Assembly: GCA_022827025.1 (NCBI GenBank)
Contig: JAJDTT010000118.1
Coordinates: forward strand, 1 to 35,921
Origin: Acidobacteriota bacterium
Lineage (GTDB): Bacteria > Acidobacteriota > UBA6911 > RPQK01 > JAJDTT01
Direction: 5' to 3'
Length of the DNA stretch: 35,921 bases
Position numbers and translations under genes: made by a program. The notes below the pieces were generated by a model, which saw only the letters and a list, made by a program, of their open reading frames with translations, was not told where the DNA came from and made no database searches. Below are positions 1,569 through 11,544 of the stretch, piece by piece (position 1 is the stretch's first letter; every line of letters begins with the position of its first letter).

Positions 1569-4436
1569 CTATTCGGCCCGATAGCCTATCTCAACCTCCT
1601 CCAGGACCGGAGAGTTGACGCCGCCGGGCGAAACCAGCGTCGCCTTATATTGAATCCAACGGGTCTCGTCGCCGAGGCCTTCCAAACGGGAACCCGACCG
1701 GGTGTATCGGCTTCCCGGTCCATCAGGACCGGACCACTCGGTGGAATCCAAGCCCTCCAGCGTCTCCGAACCTCGAACCTGGAAATGAACCGAGGTCTCA
1801 AGCGGCGTCCTCGCTGTCCAGTTCAGGGTCTCGACAACGCCGTTCCCGGGTATTCGGAACGGCGACGAGACGTAATCGTAACGGGGAGACCGGTCATAGA
1901 CGTTTCCCACGTCGTGATGGATCGCCCAGTGCACGCCCCGGGTCGGAACCCCGATCCGCCTGTCAGCCGAGAATCCCGCCTCGGAGCCCCAATAGAGGAA
2001 GGAGTCGGTGCGATGGTTTCCGCCCTTGGTGTGGCAGACGAAGAAGATGTCCTCGTACCCGTCCCGGTTGTAGTCGGCCACCATGACGCCGGATGCGGAA
2101 TCGGTGGGCAAAAGGACCGGTTTCGGGTCGAGTCCCGATTTGGTGCCCCAGAAAACATACGACGGGTGGTGCCGGTTGACGCCGGCGTGGTAGCTGGAAA
2201 CCACCAGGTCCAAGTGCCCGTCCCGGTTCAGATCGGCGATGGACGCGTCCTCGCTCCCCACCGTGTCCAGGAGCAGCATGCGATTTTCCGAGAATCCCGC
2301 TTTCCCGCCCCAGTAGACGGCGGTGCCGGCGGCGAACGGGGCCGCTTGGGGCTCCGCGTCGATGGCGCGCTCGCCCTCATCGGTCCGGAGCTTCTCCAGG
2401 TCGTACAGATTGCAGATCACGATGTCCAGGAAGCCGTCGGCGTTGAGGTCCCCGATCTCGGCGCCGACGGCCATCTTTGAGGGAAGATACTGGACGTTCC
2501 CGTTGTCGAATCCTCCAGGTCCGTTCCAGAAGATGGCCACGCGGTCGCTGGTCCCGGTGAAGAGCAGGTCCAGGTAGCCGTTGCGGTCCAGGTCCGCCGC
2601 CTTGTGGAGCCGCACGTCGGGAAACTTGAGGATGAAGCGGTTGTCCATCCGGTAGCCTTCGGGACCGCCCCAGAAGAGGCTCATTTCGTCCCGGCCGTGG
2701 GTCCACTCGCTGAGACTCAGGTCCAGGTAGCCGTCCCGGTTGAAATCCGCCACCACCACGCTGAAGCCCCTCCGAGTGGGGAGATGAGTGGCGCCGGTCC
2801 GGGAGAGCCCTTCGGGCGTCCCCCACAAAATGTCGATCTGGCCCGCCAGCACCAGGTCGGTCCAGCCGTCCCGGTCCAAGTCGGCGATGTTGGCCGCGCT
2901 TTGGCCGGAGTAGGGCAAAGTCCAGCGGTCGTCGGGAGAGTAGTCCCCTTCGGGACGGCCCCAATAGACATAGGTATTGGGGGCATCGTTGGCCGCATAG
3001 CCGTCCTTGCTCTGGGCAAAGGCCAGATCGCCCCTGCCGTCGCCGTCCAGGTCGCCGCTTGCCACCGACAATGCGCCTCGAGTCGGCAGGTCTGCGCGGC
3101 GCGAGGAGTCAAACCCGCCGGGGCCGTTCCAGTAGACGGTGGACGAGACATCGTAGCTTTCGTCGTTTTTCTCGTTCGCGAACACCAGGTCGGGGTAGCC
3201 GTCTCCGTTCAGATCGGCGACGGCGCTGGCGCTGGCGGAGAGCGTCGGCAGGGCGGTCCTCAAATGGGTCCGGTACCCGCCGGCCGAGCCCCAGTAGATG
3301 AACGACGCAAGGCCTGCCTGGTTGGACAGGATAAGGTCGGGACGCCCGTCCTTGTCGAGATCGGCGGCATCGATCCCCCGGGCCCTCCAGCCGGGCAACT
3401 CGGTCCGCCGCGCGGCATCGAAACCCTCGGAAGCCCCCCAATAGACGTAACAGGGAATCGGCGTGACCGCGATCCCTCCGGCATTGGCGTCCACGCCGGG
3501 CGCCGTCTCGTTGGCCACCGCCAGGTCGGGCCAGCCGTCTCCGTTCAAGTCGGCGGCGATCACAGCCACGCTTCCCAACCCCTCCAGCCAAAGGGAGGCC
3601 TCCGCCGAGTAGCCGGATTCGGACCCCCAGTAGACCAGCACTCCACCCGGTTCGCCCTTGTAGTCCTGAACCGCAAAGACCAGATCGGGCGTTCGGTCGC
3701 GGTTCAGGTCCGCAATGGCCACGTCGCGGGCGAAGCGGGTGGGCAGTTGCGTGGTTCGGCGGGGAGAGTAGCCGTCCTCCGACCCCCAGTAAATGTCTGA
3801 AACGGGCCGCACCACGCTGAAGTCGTTCCCCTCCCGGGTGAACTGGTAGGAGAGGCCGTTGCTGGCGAAGACGACTTCCGGGAAACCATCTCCGTTCAAA
3901 TCTCCCGTGGCCACCGCCTGTGCCGAAACCGTCGGCAGATCGGTTCTCTGCTCGGCATCGAAGCCGGACTCGCTCCCCCAATAGACGGCCGACCGGTTCT
4001 CGGTGCGGGTGCCGTTGTAGCCCTTGGCCACCACCAGGTCCGGATGACCGTCCCGATTGAGGTCCGCAATGGCCACGTCCCGGCCTCCCTCTCCCGGGAG
4101 CGCGGTCCGACCGCCGGCGCCCAGATCGTCCCTTCCCCAGTAGATCCAGGCATCCATGTCGAAATTGTTGTCGTGGCTCCCCGGCAGGACCAGGTCGATG
4201 AGCCCGTCGTGGTTCAGGTCCAGCTCGTTGATGAGGCGGATGCTCCCATCCGCCCCGACGTAGGTGTTGGCCCCACCGTCGGCCAGGGTGCCGTCGGCAA
4301 AATCGGCGAAGCTGGACTCCCGCCAAGCCTCCGACTCTTCCTCCAGAGGAGCCTGGGGAGTTTCTGCCGGAGGGGCAAATGCCGCCATGAGTCCCACCAG
4401 AGCGATAACGACCACTCGCCGGTACGCTAACGTCAT
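1569..4436 (-). CDS. Secreted FG-GAP/VCBS-repeat protein with 14 calcium-loop repeats
   Basis: This 955-residue protein starts with a basic hydrophobic signal sequence (about 1-24) ending in a proline-rich segment, so it is probably exported. The body is a repeat of about 50-60 residues: YWGS.xGY..., RTxLPT, then a D-x-N-x-DG loop (ADLNRDGxxDLV). I count 14 such loops, including slightly degenerate ones such as DLNRDRTPDL and DLDRNG. These are Ca2+-binding FG-GAP/VCBS repeats, which fold as integrin-alpha-like beta-propeller blades. Fourteen loops would fit two seven-bladed propellers. A C-terminal segment of about 100 residues (from about SSPFRIPGNG) lacks the repeat and looks like a beta-sandwich. 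The ATG at 4436 overlaps the PHP gene stop (ATGA), with GGGGGAG just upstream. Partner or ligand is unknown. Confidence 0.88.
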   Translation of the reverse strand: MTLAYRRVVVIALVGLMAAFAPPAETPQAPLEEESEAWRESSFADFADGTLADGGANTYVGADGSIRLINELDLNHDGLIDLVLPGSHDNNFDMDAWIYWGRDDLGAGGRTALPGEGGRDVAIADLNRDGHPDLVVAKGYNGTRTENRSAVYWGSESGFDAEQRTDLPTVSAQAVATGDLNGDGFPEVVFASNGLSYQFTREGNDFSVVRPVSDIYWGSEDGYSPRRTTQLPTRFARDVAIADLNRDRTPDLVFAVQDYKGEPGGVLVYWGSESGYSAEASLWLEGLGSVAVIAADLNGDGWPDLAVANETAPGVDANAGGIAVTPIPCYVYWGASEGFDAARRTELPGWRARGIDAADLDKDGRPDLILSNQAGLASFIYWGSAGGYRTHLRTALPTLSASASAVADLNGDGYPDLVFANEKNDESYDVSSTVYWNGPGGFDSSRRADLPTRGALSVASGDLDGDGRGDLAFAQSKDGYAANDAPNTYVYWGRPEGDYSPDDRWTLPYSGQSAANIADLDRDGWTDLVLAGQIDILWGTPEGLSRTGATHLPTRRGFSVVVADFNRDGYLDLSLSEWTHGRDEMSLFWGGPEGYRMDNRFILKFPDVRLHKAADLDRNGYLDLLFTGTSDRVAIFWNGPGGFDNGNVQYLPSKMAVGAEIGDLNADGFLDIVICNLYDLEKLRTDEGERAIDAEPQAAPFAAGTAVYWGGKAGFSENRMLLLDTVGSEDASIADLNRDGHLDLVVSSYHAGVNRHHPSYVFWGTKSGLDPKPVLLPTDSASGVMVADYNRDGYEDIFFVCHTKGGNHRTDSFLYWGSEAGFSADRRIGVPTRGVHWAIHHDVGNVYDRSPRYDYVSSPFRIPGNGVVETLNWTARTPLETSVHFQVRGSETLEGLDSTEWSGPDGPGSRYTRSGSRLEGLGDETRWIQYKATLVSPGGVNSPVLEEVEIGYRAE

Positions 4437-5710
4437 GGAGTCTCCCCCGGAACCTGAAGGCTTCTCTCCACCAAGAGCGGCCGATCGGCGCCGGAAAGCA
4501 TATTGGTGACGGTGATGACGAGCCGGACGTCCGCCTCTCCCTCGTTCACCTTGATGGGTGCCACCGTCCGGCCCCGCTCTGCAATGCGAAACTCCCGGAG
4601 ACCCGCAGTCGTCGCCTCTCCCGCCCTGGAGATCGTCATGCGAAAGGGGAAGGAGGAAGAGTTGGCAATGGACAGCATATGGCGTTTCCGATTCTCTTGG
4701 ATGCTGGGAGTCAGACTGAAATGGAGCGAGCTATCGGCCAGGGCGCGGAGCCACTCTTCCCGGCCCCAGATCATCTCGCCGAAATAGGCCAGGGTGCGGC
4801 GGGCCTTGATCGCTTCACGGATCTCTTTCTCGCCGCGGCTCTCGGCCAGGACCAGGGTCATGTCCCGGCGCTCGCCCCGGCTCCGGTCCACCATCTGATC
4901 GATGGGCCAGTGAGCGTCCGACACGGCGATGACGGCCAGGTCGTGCTCGAGGCACCAGTCCATGACGTTGGCGAAGAAAGGTTCCCCCCGGTGGTATCCA
5001 ATCCCCTTCCCCCCTCTTCGGCCACCGTTTCTCAGCTCGATCCCGTCCAGCCACCCCCACTCCAGGAGCCGTGTCGCGTCCCGGACCCATCGGGGGCCGG
5101 GATGAGCCCAGATGATGACGGCTCCCTGGTCCCGGGCCGACCGGACCGCCGTGTCGAAGTCGCCGAAAAAGGGACTCTCGTCCTGAATGAAGGCGACGAC
5201 GTAATCCGAGTGTTCCTCCGTGGTATTTGGCCTGGAAAGGGTCGTCAACTCGGCTCCGCGAACCAGCATCAACCCCAGGGCCCGGGCCAGGGGAAGGGCT
5301 CGGCCGTACGCTCGTTCCCGGTCCTGGGGAAACGCCAGCTTCAGGTACTCAGGATGATCGGTGATGACCATCAGATCCAGGCCGTCGCCCCAGGCTTCCC
5401 AGACTCGAGATTCGGGCAGGACCTGGCCGTCGGAGTAGATGGTGTGGATGTGGAGATCCGCCTTGATGACCTGCAACCCCCGGACTTGGGGAAAGACGAT
5501 CTCCTGGCGGGAAAGACCCTTGTGCCCCGCCACGTAGGGCCAGCCGTATTTTTTGGCCAGCTTCTGGCCGGTCGTCCAGTTGGCCTGTTCGGTGCCCGAT
5601 CCCTCCTCAGCGGGAACGTACACGGCAACCAACAACTGGAGGAGGACCACCGCCACGGCTCTTGTACCTGCGAATTTGGCAATTGGATTCAAACTCCGTT
5701 TCCAAGGCAT
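4433..5710 (-). CDS. Exported PHP-domain metal-dependent phosphoesterase-like protein
   Basis: This 425-residue protein has an N-terminal hydrophobic stretch (about 14-32) consistent with a signal peptide or anchor. A PHP (polymerase and histidinol phosphatase) domain follows. Visible metal-ligand motifs are DLHIHTIYSDG (H87, H89, D94), ITDH (D118, H119), GAELTT (E154), AHPG (H203) and SDAH (D265, H267). PHP proteins bind two or three metals and usually hydrolyse phosphoesters; the substrate here is unknown. The C-terminal third (about 340-425) has no PHP motif and looks like a beta-sandwich. The stop overlaps the FG-GAP start by 4 bp, so the two secreted products are probably made together. 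The ATG at 5710 has no Shine-Dalgarno sequence; a predicted promoter would start transcription almost at this codon. Confidence 0.85.
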   Translation of the reverse strand: MPWKRSLNPIAKFAGTRAVAVVLLQLLVAVYVPAEEGSGTEQANWTTGQKLAKKYGWPYVAGHKGLSRQEIVFPQVRGLQVIKADLHIHTIYSDGQVLPESRVWEAWGDGLDLMVITDHPEYLKLAFPQDRERAYGRALPLARALGLMLVRGAELTTLSRPNTTEEHSDYVVAFIQDESPFFGDFDTAVRSARDQGAVIIWAHPGPRWVRDATRLLEWGWLDGIELRNGGRRGGKGIGYHRGEPFFANVMDWCLEHDLAVIAVSDAHWPIDQMVDRSRGERRDMTLVLAESRGEKEIREAIKARRTLAYFGEMIWGREEWLRALADSSLHFSLTPSIQENRKRHMLSIANSSSFPFRMTISRAGEATTAGLREFRIAERGRTVAPIKVNEGEADVRLVITVTNMLSGADRPLLVERSLQVPGETP

Positions 5711-5715
5711 GAGGT

Positions 5716-5727
5716 GATATAAATATC
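5716..5727 (+). promoter_or_regulatory. Near-symmetric -10 element, possible shared divergent promoter for the SDR gene
   Basis: GATATAAATATC is nearly palindromic, so it offers a -10 in both directions. On the plus strand TATAAA (5718-5723) would place transcription start around 5730, about five bases before the SDR ATG. No convincing plus-strand -35 was seen at the right distance. Symmetric -10 boxes that fire both ways are known in bacteria; use of this one in the plus direction is inference. Confidence 0.3.
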
Positions 5728-5745
5728 CGTCGCCATGAACGTCAA
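5717..5745 (-). promoter_or_regulatory. Predicted sigma70-type promoter for the PHP/FG-GAP genes, leaderless
   Basis: On the minus strand, TTGACG (5740-5745) and TTATAT (5717-5722) are separated by 17 bp. Transcription would begin near 5710, the first base of the PHP start codon, giving a leaderless mRNA. This agrees with the lack of a ribosome-binding site there. The -35 lies inside the first codons of the divergent SDR gene. The call is from sequence only. Confidence 0.5.
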
Positions 5746-6511
5746 GCGGCTATTGGATCTCAGCGGCAAGATATCGGTCGTCACCGGCGGCACCGGCTTC
5801 TACGGCAAGCCCATTTCGGAGGGACTGGCCGAGGCCGGAGCCCACGTCGTCATCGCGTCCAGGAACCGGCAGCGATGCCGGGACTGGGCTCTGGAGCTGG
5901 AAGGGAGAGGGCTCTCAGCCAGCGGTGACGGATTCGACCAGGGAGACGAGTCCTCCATCCTGGAGTTCTGCGAGCGAGTGTGGACGAAGTTCGGCGCCGT
6001 CGACGTGCTGGTCAACAACTCGGTGGCACGTCCCATGAGAGCGTACGCCGACCCGCTGGAAGCCTGGGAGCGATCCATGGCGGTCAACGCCACCGGTGTC
6101 TTCGCCATATCCCGGGCATTCGTGGACCGGATGATGGAACGGGGACAAGGAGCCGTCGTCAACATCGGCTCCATCCAGTCGGTCGTGGCCCCCGACTTCA
6201 CCAACTACGCGGGCACGGATATGACGACGCCTCCGGACTACCACTTCCACAAGCATGGGATGGTGGGCCTGACCAAGTACCTGGCCGCGTGGGCGGGACC
6301 CAGGGGAGTCCGGGTCAATGCCATCGCCCCGGGCGGGCTCGCGCTCGGAGGGGAGAAGGAACCCTTCCTGTCCCAGTACTGCAGCAACACCTTCCTGGGC
6401 CGCATGGCCCAATACGACGACATCAAGGGGTCGGTGGTCTTCCTGGCCTCGGAAGCCTCAGCCTACGTCACCGGGCACACCATCCTGCTGGACGGCGGCT
6501 ACTGCGCCTGA
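5735..6511 (+). CDS. SDR-family NAD(P)-dependent oxidoreductase
   Basis: This 258-residue protein has the size of a classical short-chain dehydrogenase/reductase. The nucleotide-binding TGGTGFYG motif is at residues 17-24. NNS is at 94-96 in place of the usual NNAG. NIGSIQS (143-149) supplies the catalytic serine. The Tyr-Lys pair is Y169-x-x-x-K173 in YHFHK. A PG motif (IAPGG) and a C-terminal GHTILLDGGY segment are typical of the family. Family members reduce or oxidise alcohol/ketone substrates; this substrate is unknown. A short TDMTTPPD stretch separates the serine and tyrosine motifs and may shape the active site. It diverges from the PHP gene with only 24 bp between start codons. The nearest purine-rich tract, GAGGTGA at 5711-5717, is too far from the ATG to be a good ribosome-binding site. 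Confidence 0.9.
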   Translation: MNVKRLLDLSGKISVVTGGTGFYGKPISEGLAEAGAHVVIASRNRQRCRDWALELEGRGLSASGDGFDQGDESSILEFCERVWTKFGAVDVLVNNSVARPMRAYADPLEAWERSMAVNATGVFAISRAFVDRMMERGQGAVVNIGSIQSVVAPDFTNYAGTDMTTPPDYHFHKHGMVGLTKYLAAWAGPRGVRVNAIAPGGLALGGEKEPFLSQYCSNTFLGRMAQYDDIKGSVVFLASEASAYVTGHTILLDGGYCA

Positions 6512-6538
6512 GCAGAGTCGCACAGACTCTTTCCACCA

Positions 6539-6577
6539 CAAAAAAAAAGCGCGCCCGCCGAAATGGCGGACGCGCTT
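6539..6577 (-). terminator. Intrinsic terminator of the TonB receptor gene
   Basis: Read on the minus strand, a GC-rich stem (6565-6576 with 6548-6559, one mismatch, 5-nt loop ATTTC) is followed by nine T residues (complement of 6540-6548). It lies 24 bp past the receptor stop codon. On the plus strand only a short TTT follows, so it is probably a weak terminator for the convergent SDR gene. Confidence 0.85.
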
Positions 6578-6600
6578 TCGAATCTAGCCTGGAACTCGAA

Positions 6601-9600
6601 CTAGTAGTAGATCTTCAGGCCGAACTGCAACTGCCTTGCGGTCAGCGCCGATCCGATGGAGCCGAAAGACCCATGGTTGAAGTTGAACGTGTTCCAGTTT
6701 GAGTTGAGGTTGGTGCGGTTCGTCAGGTTGAAGGCCTCGAACCGGAACTGGATCCGGGTCTCCTCACCCAAGTGGAAATCCCGCAATAGCGAGAAGTCCA
6801 CGTTGATGGTGCCTGGACCTTCGACGATGCCGCGGCCCGCGTTCCCATATCGGCCGGGAGGCGGCGCTGCGAACGCGTCGGTCCGGAACCACGACTCCGG
6901 TCGCCGGGAACCGGAATTGGGATCCCGGAGCAGGTCGGGCCGCTGGGAAGCATTGCTTCCCACATTGAGCAGGTCCGCTGTAGAAACCGTATACCAGTGC
7001 CCCTTCTGAAGAGTGGTGATGGCATAGACGCTCCAACCGCCGAAGATCTGGCTGAAGAAGCCGTCCGAGCCGTAGGCGCGGCCGGGTCCGAAGGGGATGT
7101 CCCAACCCTTCAACCAAGCCAGCCGCATCGGGATGTTGCCCTCGCCTCTGCCGCGGTTCTTGTAGGTGAAGCCGTCGGCCCAGAGGTTTCGGCTCACTTC
7201 GCGCGGGTCGCCCGTGACGCTGAGTCGTCCGCCGGTGGTGTCGATGCTCTTGCCCCAACTGAAGACCAGGAGCGAGGTCATACCATACTGGCCCGGCCTC
7301 TTCTCCCACTTGAAGTTGAAACCGTGGTAGGTCTGGTCTCCGTTGCCCAGGAGCATGTAATACCGGGTCATGTTGGGCCAGGGCCGCCGTTCCTGACGGG
7401 GACCTTCACCCGGACGCGCGTCGTTGAACCGGAAGACCTGCATCTCGTGCACCGAGCGGGAGCCCTCGTATCCGACCTCGAACATGTTGTTCTGACCGGT
7501 CCGGTGCTGGAGCGACAGGCCAAAGTTGGGCACGTACCACTGGGGCATGATGTCTTCGTACCCGCCACCAGTAGTTACGGCGCCGGCACCGACCAGAACC
7601 GACTCGTCGTAGGGGTTGGCGATGAAAAGATTCGGGGCCGCCGCCAGGGCCTCGAAATCCCTCTGGCCCGAGTTCGGACGGGGATTGCCCAGAGCGGATG
7701 CACCGTACATCATGCCGCCCGGCGGCTCGTTTCCGTAGATTCCTCCGCCGATACGCAGCACCGTCCTGTCCGTCAAACGGTAGGAGAGGCCGAGGCGCGG
7801 CTGAAACCCGTTCTTGGTCCAGGTGAAGATGTTCACCTGCGGCTCGAACCGCCCGGTCTCGGGAAACACGAGGGTCTGTTGGAGCAGAGGGGGTGAATAG
7901 CAGTCGGGAATCGGAGTCTCCGTCCGCAATGCACAGTCCGCCTTGAGGTTGGTGGAGAATCCCCGCTTGTCTTCCCAGCCCTGGCGCAGTTCGTAGCGAA
8001 GGCCAAGCTGGAGGGTCAGGTTGGGAGTCGCCTTCCAACTATCCTGCAAGTAGAAGTAGTGGCCAGGGAAGTTGTGGTTCAATCGCGCCTCGCTTCCCTC
8101 CCGGGAACTTGTCAAGTAACCCAGGTAGAAATTGGCCAAGGTGTTGTTGGCGTAACGGTTGGGACTGGTGAAGTGGAGTTCACTGCGCCGCTCCAGACCG
8201 AAGAATACATAGTGGTACCGGTAGTGGTAACCCGCCTTCAGGTAATGGTTGCCCTTGGTCCAACTGACGTTTTCCTTGAGTTCCCACTGTCCTTCCGGAA
8301 CGGGACCGCGGTTGGGGCGCGACCCGATGGTGGGGTAGCCGGTCACACTGACTCGAGGCGTCCCCCGGAGGTCCACACCCCGCTTGGGCCAGTCAGGGAA
8401 GTTCAACTGATTGGCCAGATCGGGGCCTCCAGGCGGGAAACCCGGATTGTAGGGGCGCCTGTAAAAATGGAGCCCCAGCTCGTTGACCACGGTGGGCCCG
8501 AAGTTCCGGGTATTGACGATGTTCTGGGCCCAGTTGTCCAAGCCGTTGATGACGGTGAAAGCGTCAACGATGTTGACGAAGGTGATGGGCCGCTGATTGA
8601 AGAGGAAGCGGCCGAACCAGCGGCTGTCGTCTCCCGTCTTGATGTCCATTCGGACGATGTACTCGTTCCGTTCCCCAGGAGCGGTGGAGGCGCTGGTGTA
8701 GTTGAATCCCCGGCTGATGTCCGTGTTGGGCAACGGCCAGAGGTCTCCCAGCAGCCTGGACTGGGGAGTGATCCGGTCGGTGGGGATGGTGTTGTTGGGA
8801 AAGGGCTCACCCGTCATGGGATCCATGATGGTGTCGGAGAAAACGCCGCTCCGCTGCGCCGCCGTGGGCATGATTCCCGTCAGCGAACGGAACTGGCGAA
8901 TCCGTTCCCCGCTGTAGGCGAAGAACCACCAGGACTGGTCGCGGCCGTCATAGAGGCCGGGAAACATGACCGGTCCGCCCGCCACGGCGCCGAACTGGTT
9001 CCGTTTGAACTCGTTCTTGCGGCCGGTGTCGAAGAAGTTCCGGGCATCCAGGTTGTCGTTGCGGTGGAACCAGAAGATGGTGCCGTGCAGCTCGTTGGTG
9101 CCGCTCTTGGTGACGGCGCTGAACTGGCCGCCCGGCTTGATGCCGTACTCGGCGCCATAGAGGCCGCTCTTGACTTCGAACTCCTGGATGGCGTCGGGGT
9201 TGGCGAAGAACTGGAGCGAGCCGTTGGTCTCGCTCATCTGCGAGCCGTCCAGCGTGGCGTTGTTGTCGGCCCGGCGCATGCCCCGGACGTTGAACGCGAC
9301 GCCGCTGGTGACGCCGCCCACGTTCCGCAGCGGCTGGACCCCGGGGGTCAGACCGCCCAACACCCCGAAGACGTCCCGCTGGTTCAGCGGGATGCTGATG
9401 ATCTTCTTGTTGTCGATCACCTGTCCGAACTCCGCCGTCTCCGTCTTCAGGATGGGCGCGGTGGAGGCGACCTCCACGACCTCGGCCACTTCGCCGACGC
9501 TCAACTCGATGTCGATGCGGTAGTGCTGCCCCACGTCCAACTTCAGACCGGAGCGAACCTCCGTCTTGAAGCCGGGCATGGTGACCCTCATCTCGTACAC

Positions 9601-9825
9601 ATCCGCCGGCAGCGCCGACATGGCGTACTGTCCGGTGTCGCTGGAGAGCGAGGAGTGAACCTGGTTGGTGGCGATCTGGGTCATGTACACCTCGGCGCCT
9701 GGAATCACGGCGCCCGTGCTGTCGGTGACGGTTCCCACCACGTTGGCCCGGTCTCCCTGTCCCAGGGCCAAGCCGAAGCTCAGTCCCACCAGAAGCAGTG
9801 CGAGACACAATCGTTTGCTGTCCAT
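6601..9825 (-). CDS. TonB-dependent receptor with N-terminal carboxypeptidase-regulatory-like domain (Oar-like)
   Basis: This 1074-residue outer-membrane protein has a signal peptide (about 1-23, ending ALGQ). A beta-sandwich regulatory-like domain follows at about 26-115 (VVGTVTDSTGAVIPGAEV...GQYAMSALPADVYEM). Then come a plug-like region (RDVFGVLGGLTPGV, FNVRGMRRADNNATLDG) and a long beta-barrel. The final strand ends QFGLKIYY with a terminal aromatic residue, as recognised by the BAM complex. Such receptors import large or complex substrates using TonB energy; the ligand is unknown. The family is greatly expanded in Acidobacteriota. The ATG at 9825 is preceded by AGGGGGT at 9830-9836. The gene stands alone with its own predicted promoter and a clear terminator. 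No SusD-like partner is present. Confidence 0.93.
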   Translation of the reverse strand: MDSKRLCLALLLVGLSFGLALGQGDRANVVGTVTDSTGAVIPGAEVYMTQIATNQVHSSLSSDTGQYAMSALPADVYEMRVTMPGFKTEVRSGLKLDVGQHYRIDIELSVGEVAEVVEVASTAPILKTETAEFGQVIDNKKIISIPLNQRDVFGVLGGLTPGVQPLRNVGGVTSGVAFNVRGMRRADNNATLDGSQMSETNGSLQFFANPDAIQEFEVKSGLYGAEYGIKPGGQFSAVTKSGTNELHGTIFWFHRNDNLDARNFFDTGRKNEFKRNQFGAVAGGPVMFPGLYDGRDQSWWFFAYSGERIRQFRSLTGIMPTAAQRSGVFSDTIMDPMTGEPFPNNTIPTDRITPQSRLLGDLWPLPNTDISRGFNYTSASTAPGERNEYIVRMDIKTGDDSRWFGRFLFNQRPITFVNIVDAFTVINGLDNWAQNIVNTRNFGPTVVNELGLHFYRRPYNPGFPPGGPDLANQLNFPDWPKRGVDLRGTPRVSVTGYPTIGSRPNRGPVPEGQWELKENVSWTKGNHYLKAGYHYRYHYVFFGLERRSELHFTSPNRYANNTLANFYLGYLTSSREGSEARLNHNFPGHYFYLQDSWKATPNLTLQLGLRYELRQGWEDKRGFSTNLKADCALRTETPIPDCYSPPLLQQTLVFPETGRFEPQVNIFTWTKNGFQPRLGLSYRLTDRTVLRIGGGIYGNEPPGGMMYGASALGNPRPNSGQRDFEALAAAPNLFIANPYDESVLVGAGAVTTGGGYEDIMPQWYVPNFGLSLQHRTGQNNMFEVGYEGSRSVHEMQVFRFNDARPGEGPRQERRPWPNMTRYYMLLGNGDQTYHGFNFKWEKRPGQYGMTSLLVFSWGKSIDTTGGRLSVTGDPREVSRNLWADGFTYKNRGRGEGNIPMRLAWLKGWDIPFGPGRAYGSDGFFSQIFGGWSVYAITTLQKGHWYTVSTADLLNVGSNASQRPDLLRDPNSGSRRPESWFRTDAFAAPPPGRYGNAGRGIVEGPGTINVDFSLLRDFHLGEETRIQFRFEAFNLTNRTNLNSNWNTFNFNHGSFGSIGSALTARQLQFGLKIYY

Positions 9826-10113: not shown

Positions 10114-11544
10114 ATGCACGAGGACAAGTTTCACGACGAGTGCGGCATCTTCGGCATCGCCGCTCACCCAGAGGCGGCCCGCCACGCCTATCTGGGACTC
10201 TACGCCCTCCAGCATCGAGGCCAGGAGTCGGCCGGGATCGTCTCGTCCGACGGGACATGGCTGCACCAGGAACGGGGAATGGGCTACGTCGCCGAGGTCT
10301 TCAACGACGAGAAGCTGGAACGGTTGCCCGGCCTGTCGGCCACGGCCCACGTCCGATACTCCACCATGGGCGAGAGCCTGCTGACCAACGCCCAACCCAT
10401 CGTCACCCAATCCTGGCGCGGACCCGTCGCCCTGGCCCACAACGGGAACATCGTCAACACCGGGTCGTTGAGACGGAGCCTGGAAGCGGAAGGGGCCATC
10501 TTCCAGTCCACCAGCGACACCGAAGTCATTCTCCATCTTCTGGCTCATTGTCCCCAGAAGGATCTGGATGACGCCCTGCTGGAGATTCTCCGGGTCATCC
10601 GGGGCGCCTACTCCATGGTGCTGCAGCGTCCGGATTGCATTTACGCCATCCGGGACCCCATGGGCGTGCGACCGCTCTGCCTGGGCCGGTTGGAGGAAGC
10701 CTACGTGGTCGCTTCCGAGACCTGCGCCTTCGACCTGATCGGGGCACGCTATCTGCGGGACGTGGAACCGGGCGAGATCCTGCGAATCCAGGACGGTTCG
10801 CTCCATTCCTTTCGGCAGCCCGACGCGCCGCGCCACGCCTTCTGCATCTTCGAGCAGGTCTATTTCAGCCGGCCGGACAGCCGCGTCTTCGGACAAAGTG
10901 TCCACGGAGCCCGCTACCGGATGGGCCGGCGGCTGGCCCGTGAAACCGCCGTCGACGCGGACGTGGTGGTCCCGGTTCCGGATTCGGGCGTCACGGCCGC
11001 CCTGGGCTACGCCAAGGAGTCGGGCATTCCCTTCCAGTTCGGTCTGATCCGCAACCACTACGTGGGAAGGACCTTCATCGAGCCCAAGCAATCGATCCGG
11101 CACTTCGGCGTCAAGGTCAAGCTGAACCCCATCCGGGAGCTGCTGGCCGGAAAGAGGGTCATCCTCTGCGACGACTCGGTGGTTCGAGGGACCACGAGCC
11201 GCAAGATCGTGGAGATGGTCCGCTCGGCGGGAGCCAGCGAGGTCCACTTCCGCGTCAGCTCTCCGCCAACCGTATCGCCCTGCTACTACGGCATCGACAC
11301 GCCGACCCACGCCGAGCTCATCGCCGCCAACAACACGGTCGGTGAAATCCAGAAGTACGTCGGGGCCGACAGCCTCGCCTACCTCTCCCTGGAGGGGATG
11401 AAGAACGCCGTGTCCGACCGCGGAAACTTCTGCGCGGCCTGTTTCGACGAGAAATACCCCATCCCGCCGACGCGAGATTCGGGCCAGAAACAGTTGTTCG
11501 AGCTGGCCGGAAGCGGAATGACCCGGAACTCTTCGGAGAAATGA
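10114..11544 (+). CDS. purF: Amidophosphoribosyltransferase (glutamine PRPP amidotransferase), Fe-S type
   Basis: PurF makes 5-phosphoribosylamine from PRPP and glutamine, the first committed step of purine synthesis. From the ATG at 10114 the 476-residue protein begins MHEDKFHDE-CGIFGI. That is a nine-residue propeptide before the catalytic N-terminal nucleophile cysteine, as in Bacillus-type enzymes. The Ntn glutaminase domain contains LQHRGQESAG. The phosphoribosyltransferase domain has the PRPP loop VILCDDSVVRGTTS. Four cysteines match the [4Fe-4S] ligands of the B. subtilis enzyme: in FCIFEQVYFSRPDS, SPCYYGID and the FCAAC pair. In that family the cluster is oxygen-labile and tied to enzyme turnover. 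The upstream TTG at 10039 is in frame but lies at the predicted -35, so it was rejected. The stop overlaps purM by 4 bp. Confidence 0.96.
   Translation: MHEDKFHDECGIFGIAAHPEAARHAYLGLYALQHRGQESAGIVSSDGTWLHQERGMGYVAEVFNDEKLERLPGLSATAHVRYSTMGESLLTNAQPIVTQSWRGPVALAHNGNIVNTGSLRRSLEAEGAIFQSTSDTEVILHLLAHCPQKDLDDALLEILRVIRGAYSMVLQRPDCIYAIRDPMGVRPLCLGRLEEAYVVASETCAFDLIGARYLRDVEPGEILRIQDGSLHSFRQPDAPRHAFCIFEQVYFSRPDSRVFGQSVHGARYRMGRRLARETAVDADVVVPVPDSGVTAALGYAKESGIPFQFGLIRNHYVGRTFIEPKQSIRHFGVKVKLNPIRELLAGKRVILCDDSVVRGTTSRKIVEMVRSAGASEVHFRVSSPPTVSPCYYGIDTPTHAELIAANNTVGEIQKYVGADSLAYLSLEGMKNAVSDRGNFCAACFDEKYPIPPTRDSGQKQLFELAGSGMTRNSSEK

Follow-up and report, generated by a model that had tools for sequence, protein, structure and literature searches.

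Results

A divergent gene pair and its start codons

The window (the whole 35,921-nt stretch of DNA analysed here) is contig C282 of a 5.33 Mb assembly in 318 contigs, and contains a PHP-domain gene and an SDR-family gene that point away from each other across a very short spacer (Table 1). The gap of 24 bases between the two divergent ATGs that the earlier note had described was borne out. By its sequence the SDR product is a short-chain dehydrogenase. The PHP product appears to be a secreted PHP metallohydrolase of the CehA/McbA-like type: it matched the NCBIfam CehA_McbA domain at E 3.4e-13 and Pfam PHP at E 0.001, both under the models' curated cut-offs, and PDB 3e38 was its top sequence match among solved structures (E 3.5e-52).

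Table 1 Features of the divergent locus, in window coordinates.
Feature	Position	Strand	Details
PHP-domain (CehA/McbA-like) metallohydrolase gene	4433..5710	−	425 aa; ATG 5710-5708
Divergent spacer, 24 bp	5711..5734		GAGGTGATATAAATATCCGTCGCC on plus; between the PHP and SDR ATGs
GAGGTGATATAA	5711..5722	+	identical in 4/4 genomes; includes GAGGTGAT (SD-like) and the greater part of the extended −10 TGaTATAA(A/G)
−10-like TTATATC for PHP	5722-5716	−	TTATAT at N17 (5722-5717) or TATATC at N18; identical in 4/4 genomes
Quasi-palindrome GATATAAATATC	5716..5727		5-bp arms GATAT/ATATC, AA centre
−10-like TATAAA for SDR (TATAAG in G002, G003)	5718..5723	+	preceded by TGa (extended −10)
−35-like TTGACG for PHP	5745-5740	−	inside SDR codons 2-4 (AAC GTC AAG, N-V-K); identical in 4/4 genomes
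SDR-family oxidoreductase gene	5735..6511	+	258 aa; ATG at 5735; Pfam adh_short_C2 E 7.7e-40

Directly downstream of the PHP gene, with a 4-base overlap of the reading frames, is a 955-aa FG-GAP repeat ORF (1569-4436), after which comes a class IV aminotransferase ORF (589-1530). On the other side, a terminator-like hairpin at 6545-6579 (15 pairs, 10 of them G-C, a loop of 5, then a T run on the minus strand; shuffles gave 0.9 such sites) sits between the convergent SDR and TonB-receptor-like (6601-9825) genes and may serve both.

The SDR ATG1 and an in-frame TAA 15 nt before it, which belongs to TATAA, were both found in all four genomes of the genus compared here, and within 60 codons the sole other start-like codons were TTGs that are not common to all genomes. 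The PHP protein aligned gap-free in the four genus members (congeners 81–83% identical to the window copy), and its candidate starts ATG1, TTG7, GTG21, TTG27 and GTG60 occurred in each of them. The PHP frame met a stop 42 nt upstream in three genomes, while in G003 it was open for 246 nt with a GTG at −135. The earlier note's reading depended on there being no start further inside this frame; such candidates exist, and the gene caller picked codon 21 (5650), yet ATG1 is still favoured over codon 21, because the start must lie upstream of codon 21 for the hydrophobic stretch to have a Lys/Arg-bearing n-region before it. Both segments were judged by eye, and a start at TTG7 would fit equally. 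Cleavage of the signal peptide probably takes the PHP N-terminus with it. Codons 2–20 (5651-5707) had 6, 11 and 13 variable sites at first, second and third codon positions over 19 codons in the four genomes, with no indels, and their second positions were unusually free for coding sequence. The PHP start is less certain than the SDR start because second (11/19) and third (13/19) positions of these codons vary nearly equally.

Conservation of the spacer across the genus

We searched 60 genomes, the window's own included, for PHP relatives, and 24 had a match at E ≤ 0.001. Besides the own genome, matches from or near the N-terminus came only from the congeners G001, G002 and G003, at 82–83%; relatives outside the genus (31–35% identity in the nine better ones) matched only from about residue 57 and were uninformative on the start. 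SDR was divergent at exactly 24 bp, with both ATGs kept, in all three congeners. Other SDR sequences found at E ≤ 1e-40, namely relatives outside the genus (G022, G035 and G047; 39–53% identity) and second copies in G000, G002 and G003 (42–44%), were left unused for the spacer, and a search of the genome contigs gave no additional genome for comparison.

The spacer was GAGGTGATATAAATATGCGTTGCC in G001 and GAGGTGATATAAGTATGCGCTGTC in both G002 and G003, such that the comparison covers four genomes, two of them with identical spacers. Of its 24 columns 19 were invariant, compared to 147 of 286 four-fold sites (PHP 97/180; SDR 50/106, with 648 bases used), a difference with P ~0.005, or 0.01 using the higher PHP rate, in a binomial calculation that ignores shared ancestry. 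A 16-base invariant run that includes the PHP ATG was unexceptional, with 11 longer runs in coding parts. Within SDR, 19/30 four-fold sites were conserved in the first 60 codons vs. 31/76 in the rest (P = 0.051).

Within the spacer it is the half next to PHP, GAGGTGATATAA, that is conserved, and the SDR-proximal arm of the quasi-palindrome is altered in every congener, so that full symmetry characterises the own genome more than the locus. The sequence GATATAAATATC is not a perfect palindrome, because of its AA centre, and differs from its reverse complement at 2 of 12 positions. The proposal that a symmetric −10 can be read both ways stands as far as the presence of this 12-mer goes, but not for functional symmetry or for a conserved symmetric device; in its full extent the symmetry is probably incidental. 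The variable right-arm bases in 3/3 congeners do not indicate selection for the wider symmetry, and the portions of PMC12825309 and PMC10268837 consulted state no such requirement for bidirectional promoters. AT-rich (at least 10 A/T) 5-2-5 palindromes were rare, with 11 among 1,787,293 sampled 12-mers, and GATATAAATATC was the sole one in 140 sampled divergent gaps <400 bp. This rarity would suit an operator for a dimeric regulator, a reading that we nevertheless regard as very improbable, given that each of the three congeners has an altered right arm beside a constant left one and that exact copies among 89 loci were confined to the two containing the present site. The palindrome was also rejected as an RNA hairpin, as none of three folds outdid shuffled sequences (z = −0.30, +0.52 and −1.13), and the palindrome and conserved block as a repeat: TTATATCACCTCATG occurred (≤2 mismatches) at 2 places in the own genome, the present site and one other, and its reversed control at 1.

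Promoter signals in the PHP direction

Sites were ranked by a sigma70-type promoter score, for which 839,900 positions of one G001 contig served as calibration; its −10 frequencies are those given in PMC3160421, and the −35 frequencies, spacing penalties and extended −10 bonus were set by hand. On the minus strand, TTGACG-N18-TATATC scored 7.8, reached by 0.00021 of positions, with a predicted start at 5709, and TTGACG-N17-TTATAT scored 6.2, reached by 0.00068, with a predicted start at 5710. The N18 arrangement topped all minus sites within ~200 bp on each side in all four genomes, the next-best scores being 3.7 in the own genome, 6.0 in G003 and 5.7 in both G002 and G001; a start at 5709 would remove the A of the PHP ATG unless shifted by one base. 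The N17 arrangement is the minus promoter that had been proposed earlier, and its sequence was confirmed, with the predicted start on the first base of the PHP ATG and identical phasing in 4/4 genomes. No phasing unites −35, −11A and −7T, TTATAT being without −11A and TATATC without −7T. A consensus sigma70 scan of 5200-6600 (16–18 nt spacing, at least 9/12 matches, −10 with A as second and T as sixth base) found 0 sites.

That the neighbourhood's best minus site is the spacer site in 4/4 genomes, and that conservation of the spacer exceeds that of four-fold sites, argues against both mRNAs beginning within the opposite gene and overlapping antisense, with leadered translation that does without a Shine-Dalgarno (SD) sequence. 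We consider this alternative quite unlikely, even though both starts lack a normally spaced SD and tight divergent pairs were found elsewhere: candidate starts lay ≤24 bp apart in 12 of 194 sampled divergent pairs, a count made with permissive start choice (ATG or GTG) and including the present pair and its G001 orthologue. Tight divergent spacing was accordingly rejected as exceptional. A further tight divergent pair, in which TATGAT precedes an ATG by 13 nt, occurs in the own genome and G001 (L046 ~1531-1573 and G001:C23 ~96901-96943).

Promoter signals in the SDR direction

On the plus strand, the site TGaTATAAA/G had no −35 and a predicted start at 5730, which would leave SDR a 5-nt leader. 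Its score of 4.0–4.4 is weak, being reached by ~0.003 of positions (0.0033 at score 4.0), and it was the best plus site of the scanned stretch in two of the four genomes and outscored in the other two. SDR did not resemble a TA-led leaderless gene, with ATATCC as the hexamer at −12 in the window and TATAAA at −17.

A second, reciprocal phasing could be read from the sequence in all four genomes, with minus hexamers GATATT, CATATT or CATACT (start 5715) and plus hexamers AAATAT or AAGTAT (start 5733) placing the starts 18 bp apart. The reciprocal −11A/−7T of bidirectional promoters is present at this spacing, and A5722 and T5726 are invariant in 4/4. Scores of the reciprocal hexamers were 1.8–1.9 on minus (1.9 for GATATT without a −35) and, on plus, 3.7 in the own genome and 1.9 in G002 and G003, with the site outside the five best in G001. 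Across phasings the predicted leader is 0–5 nt for PHP and 2–5 nt for SDR. The claim of leaderless starts for both genes is not supported on the SDR side, where the best plus site predicts a 5-nt leader and the reciprocal phasing one of 2 nt. The companion claim, that ordinary leaders have no space, held, provided that the promoters lie in the spacer.

The spacer also contains GAGGTGAT (5711-5718), which we take to resemble the SD consensus. SD-like 5-mers in the genus peak ~9–17 nt before starts, and its GAGGT, which begins 24 nt before the SDR ATG, is therefore out of range, such that GAGGTGAT was rejected as an ordinary SD for SDR. An SD at normal spacing is absent for both genes; the assertion that neither has a usable SD thus applies to PHP as it stands, and to SDR with the qualification that an SD-like sequence is there, yet outside the local range.

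The weak plus site leaves some room for an alternative in which the spacer serves PHP alone and the promoter of SDR is located within the PHP gene, so that the SDR mRNA would have a normal leader, and in which GAGGTGAT and the AT-rich stretch aid ribosome binding. Similar or better plus sites do lie upstream, within the PHP gene, in the own genome (3.9), G003 (4.2) and G001 (5.1), and GAGGTGAT is conserved in 4/4 genomes. We hold this alternative to be unlikely: of the other plus sites, taking the top three listed for each genome, none before the SDR start recurs in position (one with start 5749 recurs in 4/4 genomes, but inside the SDR gene), and the distance of GAGGT from the ATG, beyond the local SD range, does not favour a ribosome aid. 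Folding did not help either, as the fold of 5711-5745 was unremarkable (z = −1.13; 31/200 shuffles did as well) and was predicted to pair GGUGAU itself, leaving the distance to the ATG unshortened.

A leaderless-type signal in the genus

We surveyed the positions before candidate starts from our own gene caller, drawn from G001 (1.39 Mb) and the own genome (0.40 Mb). TAnnnT occurred at −12 of leading genes at 22 per 1000 of 1301 candidates in G001, where flanking positions had ~7, and at 16 per 1000 of 308 candidates (5 matches) in the own genome. The G001 peak amounted to 28–29 observed vs. ~9–10 expected (P = 7.6e-7 from 29 vs. 10). It was absent among the operon-internal candidates of G001, of which 543 gave 9 at −11 to −14 vs. 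9.3 expected; 87 such candidates of the own genome gave 2 at −14 vs. 0.8 expected. The 33 TAnnnT matches from both genomes showed a weak −35 preference, with the best match at N17–N18 (mean 1.79 of 6) vs. means of 0.85–1.42 at the remaining nine spacings between N12 and N22. C stood immediately before the start in 20 of the 33, as in CACCTC-ATG, with C-rich bases there, and two TAnnnT pairs recurred between the own genome and G001 before near-identical start regions. In a smaller first sample from G001 the signal was less clear, at 1.36% vs. 0.53% in out-of-frame control ATGs, with a higher value of the control's own, 1.87%, at −10.

Promoter scores of at least 6 were found at −12 of 14 of 937 ATG candidates vs. 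a mean of 4.5 per position, which implies that roughly two thirds of these −12 sites would be real, and smaller rises occurred at −15 and −17 (11 each). Sites at −11, the position of TATATC, were not enriched (score at least 7: 2 vs. 2.9). The −12 peak in leading genes makes a minority class of leaderless or near-leaderless genes likely, and the genus probably has one. PHP matches the class by position and total score, not by TANNNT: its TTATAT lies at −12 in 4/4 genomes, the position of the genus signal, and the −11A of the TA-led type (TANNNT ~12 bp before the start) is missing. Elsewhere in the window, the plus gene called at 10114 is a leaderless candidate: an in-frame GTG stands 15 codons before the start that the caller chose, and TATATT precedes this GTG by exactly 12 nt.

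Discussion

The concept of bidirectional promoters is said to originate with a 2021 paper. We observed the sequence with its conservation and phasing, together with a signal of leaderless type among genes of the genus. We class the spacer as a candidate bidirectional promoter, a known kind. In the sections consulted of the work by Warman, Grainger and colleagues (PMC12825309, PMC10268837), 18 bp is the commonest start spacing of such promoters, with reciprocal −11A/−7T; the present locus, likened to them through its predicted starts, shares the overlapping −10-like elements on both strands and the 18-bp reciprocal phasing, but differs in that its best predicted starts are 20–21 bp apart, its predicted minus promoter has a −35 and its outer arms are unconserved.

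Leaderless genes have a precedent in the phylum, as Zheng et al. 2011 (PMC3160421, in the part consulted) list Acidobacteria among the groups that have them. PHP resembles the TA-led genes of that study in its −10-like hexamer at −12, the absence of an SD and a genus with the same −12 signal, whereas its TTATAT misfits TANNNT and the SDR TATAAA is at −17. The crtR gene of Corynebacterium glutamicum is reported as leaderless and divergent to its neighbour operon, but ~200 bp separate the genes and the portion of PMC5401885 consulted mentions no shared −10. We found no description of two leaderless genes sharing one −10 among the titles and abstract openings that our keyword searches of an open-access library returned. 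Bidirectional promoters and leaderless genes are each already known, and their tight combination is mildly interesting.

Our best reading, to which we give about even credence, is that the spacer is a compact sigma70-like overlapping promoter from which PHP would be transcribed leaderless or nearly so and SDR with a leader of 2–6 nt. The core would carry overlapping −10 elements usable on both strands by a housekeeping-type (sigma70-like) polymerase. On minus, TTGACG, located in the N-V-K codons of SDR, and TTATATC would start the PHP mRNA on its ATG or within ~5 nt, and on plus the extended −10 TGaTATAAA would start the SDR mRNA ~2–6 nt before its ATG. The core should fit one RNA polymerase at a time, and PHP and SDR should therefore compete. 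From these signals we infer the 5′ ends, the sigma factor, the competition and the leaderless translation. Set against this reading, the earlier note was mostly right in its observation, which was confirmed in part, and half right in its interpretation, which is partly supported.

A stronger form of the reading, which is tentative and rather doubtful, would make the locus a minimal divergent unit with start codons fused to the promoter and kept through the genus, in which the PHP ATG would be the transcription start, SDR codons 2–4 the PHP −35, and both messages would begin 0–6 nt from their ATGs. The core of such a unit would admit one polymerase, so that translation initiation and promoter competition would be set by the same ~36 bases.

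If true, these readings would mean that messages with no leader, or almost none, are in use in an uncultured lineage of Acidobacteriota type, and that a divergent promoter can be packed into 24 bp with a −35 within the neighbour's coding sequence. The locus would then be a small system in which to test how polymerases compete at bidirectional promoters, with both genes lacking a leader.
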